A stretch of DNA of 64,000 bases from Fervidicoccus fontis Kam940 (GTDB taxonomy: Archaea; Thermoproteota; Thermoprotei_A; Sulfolobales; Fervidicoccaceae), in assembly GCF_000258425.1 (NCBI RefSeq), contig NC_017461.1:620001-684000 (forward strand), in the 5' to 3' direction. Shown in pieces: positions 36,628-53,605 of the stretch. Made by a program: the position numbers and the translations under genes. The notes under the pieces were generated by a model, which did not search any database, was not told where the DNA came from, and was given only the letters and a program-made list of their open reading frames with translations. Every line of letters begins with the position of its first letter. Position 1 is the first letter of the stretch.

Positions 36628-36632
36628 AGAAG

Positions 36633-36706
36633 TGGGCCCGCTGGGAGTCGAACCCAGGACCTCCGCCGCGTCAGGGCGGCGTCCTAACCAGCTAGACGAC
36701 GGGCCC
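36633..36706 (-). tRNA. tRNA-Val (GAC), second copy
   Basis: The minus strand folds with acceptor GGGCCCG/CGGGCCC, D stem GTCT/GGAC, anticodon stem CCGCC/GGCGG with loop CTGACGC (anticodon GAC, G at 37), variable loop AGGTC and T arm CTGGG-TTCGACT-CCCAG. It is 74 bases, one shorter than the copy at 1142-1216, and CCA is not encoded. Confidence 0.94.
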
Positions 36707-51147: not shown

Positions 51148-51837
51148 ATGAATAAGGTCAAGCTGGTCGCCTTCGATGTAGACGGCGTCTTTTTAGAAAA
51201 CAGAAACAGCTGGGATACCGTGAGCTCTTTTCTAGGTACCGAAAAAAATATACAGAATTATCAGCTTTTCATCAGCGGAAAAATTAGCTACTATGAGTGG
51301 ATGTACTTAGATACGCTATCTTGGATAAGGGGCTCAAAAAAAGGCTATGTTAGCAAAGAGGATCTAGAGAGAGCTTTTCAAAGCATAAAGGTTAAAGTAG
51401 AAGTTGTAGATCTTGCTAAAAGGCTCAGGCAAAGTGGAAAAAAGATCGTACTTCTCAGCGGAGGAATAGATGTATTTGTCAGAAAGGTTGCCTTAATGAT
51501 AGGAGAAGATGTTACTTGGTTTGCAAACATTCTAATTTTCGATTCAAATGGAAGGTTAGTCCCTGGCGGGATCCCTTTAGTGCCTGCCGGCAAAAAAGGA
51601 GAAATTCTCAGGAGGATCAGGGAAAAGCTGAATATTATTAAGAAAGAGACAGCTTTCATAGGAGACAGTGCTTGGGATAAGGAAGGGTTTACTGAATCTG
51701 GATTGAGCATTCTATACAACGGTATAAAAGAGGAGCTTTCTGAGATGAAGGTCTGTGCAGTAGCTGAAAATGTGGAAGAAGTTGAAAAAATAATTAATTT
51801 ATATGAAGCAGGGGAAATTTTGTGCGAGGATTTCTAA
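51148..51837 (+). CDS. HAD-superfamily phosphatase (phosphoserine phosphatase-like)
   Basis: AFDVDGVFLENRNSWDTVSS contains the catalytic DxD motif, with both aspartates at residues 9-11. VLLSGGIDVFVRKVALMIGE is motif II, and KLNIIKKETAFIGDSAWDKE holds motifs III/IV (lysine and GDSxxD). A small helical cap after motif I places it in subfamily IB, with phosphoserine phosphatase and relatives. At 229 residues it fits. Serine synthesis or another small phosphoester is possible. The ATG follows GAGGAGATGAGTT. The box C/D sRNA cluster follows. Confidence 0.85.
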   Translation: MNKVKLVAFDVDGVFLENRNSWDTVSSFLGTEKNIQNYQLFISGKISYYEWMYLDTLSWIRGSKKGYVSKEDLERAFQSIKVKVEVVDLAKRLRQSGKKIVLLSGGIDVFVRKVALMIGEDVTWFANILIFDSNGRLVPGGIPLVPAGKKGEILRRIREKLNIIKKETAFIGDSAWDKEGFTESGLSILYNGIKEELSEMKVCAVAENVEEVEKIINLYEAGEILCEDF

Positions 51838-51935: not shown

Positions 51936-51994
51936 AGCGTTATGATGAATTAAATGTTGCTGAAAAGTGATGCAGGCCTGTGTTGCTGAGCGCT
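51936..51994 (+). ncRNA. Box C/D sRNA 1
   Basis: All four boxes are present in order: C box ATGATGA (51942-51948), D' CTGA (51960-51963), C' GTGATGC (51967-51973) and D CTGA (51986-51989). The spacers are 11 and 12 bases, ideal for archaeal guide RNAs. AGCG and CGCT at the ends pair to close the kink-turn. A TATA-like TATAAATT lies upstream near 51921-51929. The D guide AGGCCTGTGTTG predicts a target CAACACAGGCCT, which by memory resembles an AACACAGG segment of 23S rRNA. Confidence 0.85.
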
Positions 51995-52035: not shown

Positions 52036-52072
52036 CAATTTAATTAATAAGTATTCAGAAAATTTTATAAAA

Positions 52073-52131
52073 ATGATGAGCTTGATCTAATTGGATGAGC
52101 GTAATGCGATGATGCTGTTATCCCCGTCTGA
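52073..52131 (+). ncRNA. Box C/D sRNA 2, predicted to guide to the 23S peptidyl transferase centre
   Basis: The C box ATGATGA (52073-52079), C'-like ATGATGC (52109-52115) and D box CTGA (52128-52131) give a 59-base RNA, typical for archaea. The D' box is degenerate and not assigned. The D guide TGTTATCCCCGT is complementary to CGGGGATAACA, the universally conserved 23S sequence around E. coli 2443-2453 (recalled, not searched). The D+5 rule would place methylation on the third G of GGGG, E. coli G2446. The extra base next to the D box does not pair. Confidence 0.75.
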
Positions 52132-52196
52132 TTTTAAAAAGATAGAAAGGTTTAAATCTGTGGGGAAATGATAATTTTTAACTACTCTTTTAGAAG

Positions 52197-52253
52197 ATGA
52201 TGACTGCCCTATCGAAGATGCCTAACGGCGATGATTCCTTGAATCCCGTCTGA
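52197..52253 (+). ncRNA. Box C/D sRNA 3
   Basis: C box ATGATGA lies at 52197-52203, a D'-like CTAA at 52222-52225, a degenerate C' (CGATGAT-like) near 52229-52235 and D box CTGA at 52250-52253. The guide before D (CTTGAATCCCGT) has no target I recognise. Its 57-base length and its position directly after two better guides support it. It ends 26 bases before the next gene's start. Confidence 0.6.
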
Positions 52254-52279: not shown

Positions 52280-53605
52280 ATGCTCAGCTTCAGCATTAAT
52301 TCAAGCGATGTTGATATGCTTGCCACCCTCATTATTTCATTTTTAGAAGGAGGTCTCTTAGGACTAGAAAGGTATAAAGTTGGAATGGAGAAGCAGGATA
52401 AAATTGAAAGTGAAGAGCTACCTGGAGTAAGGACATATGGACTAATGAGCATATTAGGAACTATACTTGCCTTGCTTAATTCTGACAAGATCTCCGTAAG
52501 CCCTTTTGCAAATGAGGTTTTAACCGTTTCTGGCGCTATTTTCGTCACGATCTTGATGGTATCTTACATATACTTCAGGCTCTACAGACTGAAAATAGCG
52601 GGATTGACTTCATATTTCGTCTTCTTCCTAACATTCATCATAGGATTTCTCACTGGCTATGGATACTATATTCTTTCTATGAGCTTAACCTTTCTCATAG
52701 CAGGAATTTTGGCGTTTAAGAGAGCAATAACCGCCTCTCTGGAAAAGCTTTCGTATGATGAACTCACTGCGGGTCTTGAGCTTGGGATGATTATCTTCAT
52801 ACTTGGTCCTTTCGTTTATGCGACAAACTATGAAATTTATGGTCTAAACCTTCAAGGAGTGTACATTTTCTTTACGCTTATTTTAGCAATCTCTTACATA
52901 AGCTATATGGCTTATAAGCTTAAAGGAGAGAAGAGCCTTCTTGCCGTTTCACTACTTGGTGGACTTATCAATAGTGAAGCAACGCTAATGAATATATTAA
53001 AAATTGGGGTAAAAGGAAAAAAATTGGCAAAGCTTTCGTCTATTAATAACAGCGGAATGGTGATAAGGACTGCTCTCACAGTATTAATAGGTGCGTATCC
53101 ATTCCTCATTTCTGATGGATACGAAATATTTGCAAGATACATAATCTCAGGTGTATTACTCTCAATTATGATTCTATACTTAACATATACTCTTTCTGGA
53201 AGGGAAAAGAAAGCTGAGGAAAATGGGGAAAAAGTACTGTATCTTGCAAGCCCGTTGGAAGTAAAAATTGCAACGAGAGGAGTCATTCTTTATATCTTAA
53301 TTTTCGTTTTGGTTAAGGTATCAAACTACTATCTTGGAAGCTATGCCCTCTTTATAACATCATTCATAGGCGGCTTTGCAAGCTCCATCGCTACAGTTCT
53401 TTCTCTGCTTTCTCTAGGTTCTACTGTATCAATAAAAATAATATCGAGCGCGTCTCTATTATCAATGGGCGCAGCAATGCTGAATAAAATAATTTACGCA
53501 AAAATAACCACCGATGATAAAGATGCCCTTAAAGAGGTCCTGGTTTCATCTATACCGTCTGGCATAGCTCTTATAATCCTCTCACTCATATTCATCTATT
53601 TTTAA
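52280..53605 (+). CDS. MgtC/DUF4010 membrane protein
   Basis: The N-terminal part matches the MgtC/SapB domain (FLEGGLLGLERYKV and GVRTYGLMSILGTILALL, with the conserved LIGLER-type and GVRTF-type motifs). Further along, LGGLINSEATLMNILKIG and a long stretch of helices match DUF4010. There are about twelve membrane helices in 441 residues. Such fusions are common in archaea and have no known substrate, though magnesium or pH stress is suspected for MgtC alone. The ATG follows AAAGGATGAAAAC, only 26 bases after the box C/D RNA. Confidence 0.87.
   Translation: MLSFSINSSDVDMLATLIISFLEGGLLGLERYKVGMEKQDKIESEELPGVRTYGLMSILGTILALLNSDKISVSPFANEVLTVSGAIFVTILMVSYIYFRLYRLKIAGLTSYFVFFLTFIIGFLTGYGYYILSMSLTFLIAGILAFKRAITASLEKLSYDELTAGLELGMIIFILGPFVYATNYEIYGLNLQGVYIFFTLILAISYISYMAYKLKGEKSLLAVSLLGGLINSEATLMNILKIGVKGKKLAKLSSINNSGMVIRTALTVLIGAYPFLISDGYEIFARYIISGVLLSIMILYLTYTLSGREKKAEENGEKVLYLASPLEVKIATRGVILYILIFVLVKVSNYYLGSYALFITSFIGGFASSIATVLSLLSLGSTVSIKIISSASLLSMGAAMLNKIIYAKITTDDKDALKEVLVSSIPSGIALIILSLIFIYF

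Follow-up and report, generated by a model that had tools for sequence, protein, structure and literature searches.

Archaeal box C/D sRNAs of the double-guide type, as described by Dennis et al. (2015; PMC4644070), carry C, D', C' and D boxes with two guide positions, and the two guides of one RNA are often aimed at neighbouring rRNA sites. The RNA analysed here, sRNA 2, shares this layout, with a D' box that is only tentative, and it also shares with the RNAs of that study the D+5 rule and a predicted target within the hotspots of 23S domain V. It appears to differ in its site, G2446 (E. coli numbering), although this may stand in the site tables of that paper's additional files.

The closest eukaryotic counterpart is the snR38 family. 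In PMC8817022, Gm3148, Gm2815, Gm4362 and Gm2805 are listed together with their snoRNAs as one conserved site; the guides are yeast snR38 for Gm2815, human snR38A-C for Gm4362 and Arabidopsis AtsnoR38Y for Gm2805, with the human and Arabidopsis positions given in an older numbering. Yeast Um2921 corresponds to E. coli Um2552 (PMC11542601), and by the same offset yeast Gm2815 falls on E. coli G2446 (2815-369 = 2446), provided that no insertion intervenes. By number, then, snR38 and sRNA 2 would have a common target site and a common type of chemistry, although snR38 acts in a eukaryotic snoRNP and the methylation discussed here is predicted. The Pyrococcus abyssi column of Table 2 in PMC11542601 is empty in the row for this site, and in a search of the open-access literature for G2446/Gm2446 and C2498 with archaea, no listed paper showed G2446 or Gm2446 in its entry; the site may still have been published elsewhere.

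We analysed a 64,000-nucleotide stretch of the Fervidicoccus fontis Kam940 genome, referred to as the window. Three C/D sRNAs lie between genes for a HAD-family hydrolase and an MgtC/DUF4010 membrane protein (Table 1), and sRNA 2 is the middle one. It is laid out like other archaeal box C/D sRNAs, its D guide standing directly before the D box. A terminal stem of five A/T base pairs encloses the C and D boxes; the C box fits RUGAUGA and the C' box is good, while the D' box is degenerate. The plus strand reads TGTTATCCCCGTCTGA at 52116-52131, and the guide given in the earlier note, TGTTATCCCCGT followed by CTGA, is indeed found there. An Rfam scan of the window returned two tRNAs only, with no model firing on sRNA 2, and the predicted single-strand fold of the RNA lacks the C/D fold, as is expected of a kink-turn; we gave this fold no weight. 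The window holds two tRNA-Val genes, at 1142-1217 and 36632-36706, both with anticodon GAC, in a genome of 1.3 Mb.

Table 1. Features of the three-sRNA locus (window coordinates) and of the 23S rRNA gene (genome coordinates).
Feature	Position	Strand	Basis or remark
HAD-family hydrolase	51148-51837		upstream flank of three-sRNA cluster
sRNA 1 (C/D sRNA)	51942-51989	+	sequence
sRNA 1 C box ATGATGA	51942-51948	+	sequence
sRNA 1 D' box CTGA	51960-51963	+	D' guide before, C' GTGATGC after
sRNA 1 D guide AGGCCTGTGTTG	51974-51985	+	sequence
sRNA 1 D box CTGA	51986-51989	+	sequence
sRNA 2 (box C/D sRNA)	~52068-52136	+	box layout read from sequence
sRNA 2 terminal stem, 5' strand TAAAA	52068-52072	+	pairs with 52132-52136
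sRNA 2 C box ATGATGA	52073-52079	+	fits RUGAUGA
sRNA 2 D' guide region GCTTGATCTAATTGG	52080-52094	+	rRNA target scans
sRNA 2 degenerate D' box ATGA (tentative)	52095-52098	+	sits between C and C'
sRNA 2 C' box GATGATG	52108-52114	+	sequence; a TGA four bases before the D guide is recurrent in relatives
sRNA 2 D guide CTGTTATCCCCGT	52115-52127	+	pairs with own 23S CCGGGGATAACGG; box +5 predicted at E. coli G2446
sRNA 2 D box CTGA	52128-52131	+	sequence
sRNA 2 terminal stem, 3' strand TTTTA	52132-52136	+	sequence
sRNA 3 (C/D sRNA)	52197-52253	+	sequence
sRNA 3 C box ATGATGA	52197-52203	+	sequence
sRNA 3 D' box CTAA	52222-52225	+	sequence
sRNA 3 C' box GATGATT	52230-52236	+	sequence
sRNA 3 D guide CCTTGAATCCCGT and D box CTGA	D box 52250-52253	+	sequence
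MgtC/DUF4010 membrane protein gene	52280-53605	+	Pfam; tblastn in relatives
23S rRNA gene	G000:C1:1065111-1068316	minus	

The two neighbouring sRNAs have their best matches elsewhere in 23S. sRNA 1 has a terminal stem (AGCG.../GCGCT), and the best target of its D guide in the organism's own 23S lies at 1827, with two G.U pairs. For sRNA 3, the top match of the D guide is own 23S 220 with nine pairs, and the top continuous match of the D' guide is own 23S 1861; an alternative pairing of this D' guide (ending in TATCGAAGATGC before CTAA) to own C2498, the target of the companion guide in relatives, has two box-adjacent mismatches, and we set it aside in favour of the better match at 1861.

The genome consists of a single contig of 1,319,206 bases; its minus strand carries the only 23S gene and the only 16S gene. 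When the D guide was aligned to this 23S, its best match was CCGGGGATAACGG at own position 2727, which corresponds to E. coli positions from 2442 (reference rrlB). The resulting duplex has 12 pairs, at box positions 2 to 13, with Watson-Crick pairs at 2-11, a G.U at 12 and a C-G at 13, and an energy of -20.6 kcal/mol; at position +1, beside the D box, T faces C2442 and does not pair. The earlier note had proposed an 11-base pairing with CGGGGATAACA. The match to the peptidyl transferase centre is real and CGGGGATAACA is the usual sequence, but the organism's own 23S has G at 2453, so that the pairing consists of 10 Watson-Crick pairs, one G.U as the eleventh pair and one more C-G. The predicted register stands: alignment of the own 23S with rrlB places the D+5 base at own nucleotide 2731, which is E. 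coli G2446, as predicted. We consider it very probable that the D guide of sRNA 2 pairs with 23S 2443-2454 and directs 2'-O-methylation of G2446 (own 2731); the computed support comprises the box anatomy, the match to the own 23S, the D+5 register, the genes for fibrillarin and Nop5, wide conservation and covariation of the guide with 23S at 2444 and 2445.

G2453 is rare, occurring only in this genome and in a second one, G003, among the 103 of 229 genomes of the class in which our pattern caught the site; the other 101 have A2453. Both genomes with G2453 also read GCUGCUUCGAUG at 2494-2505, with A2497G and C2499U relative to E. coli. Since G2453 goes with C2499U, the 2453-2499 pair of the peptidyl transferase centre is G.U instead of A.C or A.A. 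Elsewhere in the own 23S, near E. coli position ~1926, there is a 141-base insertion that is A+T-rich inside and G+C-rich at its ends and looks like an archaeal rRNA intron.

Complementarity alone is weak evidence. When shuffled guides were compared with the own 23S and 16S, 19 of 1000 scored at least as well as the real one, and the guide ranks fourth among the 561 13-mers that precede a CTGA in the window, as might be expected if a chance complementarity happened to lie beside a C/D-like motif. The comparative data refute this reading in the main, and we give it next to no credence. Of 229 genomes of the class, 60 contain the guide core with its D box, GTTATCCCCGNCTGA, once in each, whereas the reversed pattern was found in 1 of 229; most of the matches to GTTATCCCCGNCTGA have a C'-like TGA four bases 5' and a C box further up. 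A stricter form that includes this TGA matched 54 stretches when a single genome of each species was searched; 46 of them bear archaeal titles and 8 bacterial ones. A nucleotide search of 59 genomes with the whole of sRNA 2 found only the own copy and one in G006, so the conservation lies in the guide and the boxes rather than in the whole RNA.

The gene neighbourhood is conserved as well, which further argues against chance. The core of the sRNA 1 D guide, GGCCTGTGTT, lies 79-81 bases 5' of the sRNA 2 guide core in L186, L187 and L188, compared with about 143 bases in the own locus (L004), and sRNA 1 and sRNA 2 are thus kept together in three Fervidicoccaceae relatives. In two of the three (loci G006 and G007, by tblastn) a DUF4010 gene is nearby. 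Some matches have no C/D context around them and were rejected as probable coding sequence or chance occurrences, including those in L014, L015 and L041 (at least these three GTTATCCCCGNCTGA contexts are unlike C/D sRNAs), L064, L069, L097 and L132, and the second matches, GTTATCCCTG, in genus g43 of family f9 (L067, L068, L133 and L134).

Comparison of the guide with the 23S of the same genome gives the more telling evidence. At 2443-2447 the 103 genomes caught read CGGGG (74), CGAGG (19), CAAGG (8) or CAGGG (2). We scored genomes that had both the 23S site and a guide, either exact (GTTATCCYYGNCTGA) or fitting a looser pattern, TGANNNN-N-TTATCCYY-R-N-CTGA, that was run in 71 genomes. The base opposite 2445 is T in all 13 genomes with A2445 and C in 25 of 26 with G2445 (Fisher 1.7e-9, a value that counts genomes rather than events and ignores shared ancestry). 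Opposite 2444 it is T in all three genomes with A2444 and C in 35 of the 36 others (0.0004, again for genomes and not events). Two of the genomes counted as C are G120, which has both guide forms, and G090, whose match looks coding; the exception, G068, has CGGGG in its 23S and only a CCTTG match without C/D context. The scoring rule leaves out G187, with T opposite A2445, and G175, a counter-example with A2445 and a near-match bearing C, as well as G178, G170 and G171, which have T or TT together with other mismatches. In eight of the 19 genomes with CGAGG, no guide could be scored under this rule: nothing usable was found in G037, G018, G046, G184 and G186, and the remaining three are G175 and G178, with off-rule matches, and the T-bearing G187.

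The reversed control of the exact-guide search hit 8 of 229 genomes, and the reversed looser pattern is also frequent, so single loose matches are weak and it is their agreement that constitutes evidence. Most of the loose-match contexts that we read have C/D architecture. A2445 may have arisen once across families f2, f3 and f5; A2444 occurs in four separate groups, and in three of these a genome that has it also carries the compensated guide (G134, G040 and G167). The guide-target covariation is unusually clean, and the compensating changes found at 2444 and 2445 indicate that the pairing is under selection. Conservation and covariation together lift the match above chance, and the earlier note's reading of a C/D guide aimed at the peptidyl transferase centre is supported both by the organism's own rRNA and by its relatives.

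A target in the peptidyl transferase centre, as the earlier note had it, is favoured by these data, but the same guide has a second, weaker candidate in 16S, ATGGGGATAAC, that the note did not contain. The guide could act on the own 16S (ATGGGGATAACTC at 124, with D+5 at G128) instead of or besides 23S; this duplex runs without a break for 11 pairs, of which the one at box position 2 is G.U, and its core, GGGGATAAC, is present in 10 of the 11 genomes caught among 40 searched, with GGGGACAAC in the eleventh (G002). At -17.2 kcal/mol it is both shorter and weaker than the 23S duplex, and comparison of relatives disfavours it. In G134 (23S CAGGG) the guide reads CCCTG and in G054 (23S CGAGG) it reads CCTC, so both follow the 23S at 2444 or 2445, whereas the 16S site of each is still GGGGATAAC with its GGGG intact; similarly, the guide of G003 has a C opposite 2453 that goes with its G2453. 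Since the guides change with 23S while 16S stays, 23S is the selected target. We therefore regard the 16S target as improbable, while keeping a side activity on 16S as a candidate.

In many relatives the other guide of the sRNA pairs with the strand of the peptidyl transferase centre that faces or adjoins the G2446 site. In many of the sRNAs read from families f4, f6, f7, f10 and part of f8, the D' guide is ATCGAGGTA or close to it and pairs with ACCUCGAU; C2498 is the D'+5 base in three genomes, G013, G024 and G032. This is the nucleotide that carries Cm2498 in E. coli through RlmM (PMC11542601), although RlmM is a stand-alone protein enzyme rather than RNA-guided, and the own sRNA 2 has no C2498 guide. 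In f2 and f3 the D' guide of most loci read is GAAGAGCCG, pairing from about 2506, with the box+5 base at G2508 or G2509 according to the start chosen for the degenerate D' box. Among 35 representatives, which we chose ourselves from 73 sRNAs, 11 have at least eight Watson-Crick pairs between the rest of the sRNA and 2453-2527, compared with a mean of 1.8 and a maximum of 7 of 35 in 300 shuffles; when 114 windows along 23S were compared, the best three started at 2443, 2468 and 2493. Both the own sRNA 2 and the three Fervidicoccaceae relatives of genus g4 fall outside the 11, and scans of the own 23S and 16S gave no convincing target for the own D' guide. It follows that many relatives have a double guide that brackets helix 89 and that Fervidicoccus has only the G2446 half of it, whether retained or acquired; its second guide has drifted.

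Where a second guide is present, a further role of the RNA is probable: while the 50S subunit assembles, it would keep the two sides of helix 89 separate or in register. A stronger form of this idea is that sRNA 2 is a folding chaperone only, for helix 89 and the ring of the peptidyl transferase centre, with no productive methylation. A chaperone role has been proposed for double guides by Dennis et al. (2015; PMC4644070), and the excess of second pairings over shuffles is in keeping with it. We think the chaperone-only form unlikely, as the spacing to box D is strictly kept, which chaperoning alone would not need, and the eukaryotic site equivalent by number is methylated (PMC8817022, PMC11542601).

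Guided methylation of G2446 thus remains our preferred reading. The genome has adjacent genes for fibrillarin (2.5e-102) and Nop5, so the standard C/D mechanism should apply. An L7Ae gene is expected in archaea. L7Ae would bind the C/D and C'/D' kink-turns of sRNA 2 and Nop5 would bring in fibrillarin; the D guide would then pair with the peptidyl transferase loop on the 5' side of helix 89. This duplex would present G2446 for 2'-O-methylation. Expression of the RNA, assembly of the RNP and the methyl group itself we infer.

The archaeal matches of the stricter pattern extend to two Asgards, Baldrarchaeum (L094) and a member of the Hodarchaeota (L122); in L122 the G2446 guide stands at D', with AAGAGCCGT before D. 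A search of 14 genomes with the 23S target pattern matched seven, some of the matches not being rRNA, and none was in either Asgard genome. In Methanothermococcus (L103, L104, L105 and L114) the G2446 guide is likewise the D' guide, between the C and D' boxes, followed in most of the four by an A-rich second guide. Convergence comes easily to short guides, and the Methanothermococcus position could reflect either convergence or swapped guide modules. It is possible, though on balance doubtful, that guided methylation of G2446 was present in the ancestor of archaea and eukaryotes and was inherited as snR38/Gm2815, with archaeal double guides clamping helix 89 (G2446 plus C2498 or ~G2508/2509) and the guide being rewritten along with the peptidyl transferase centre.

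sRNA 2 is a further archaeal box C/D sRNA, and its interest lies in its covariation with the catalytic core and in a site shared with eukaryotes. The methylation that it is predicted to guide lies in the catalytic loop of the archaeal ribosome, at the snR38 site of eukaryotes, and a guide that covaries with its target where the rRNA sequence is near-universal is good computational evidence for function. The proposal that double-guide sRNAs act as clamps in folding of the peptidyl transferase centre is concretely testable here, and the Asgard contigs with the same guide would offer a marker with which rRNA methylation could be followed from archaea to eukaryotes.
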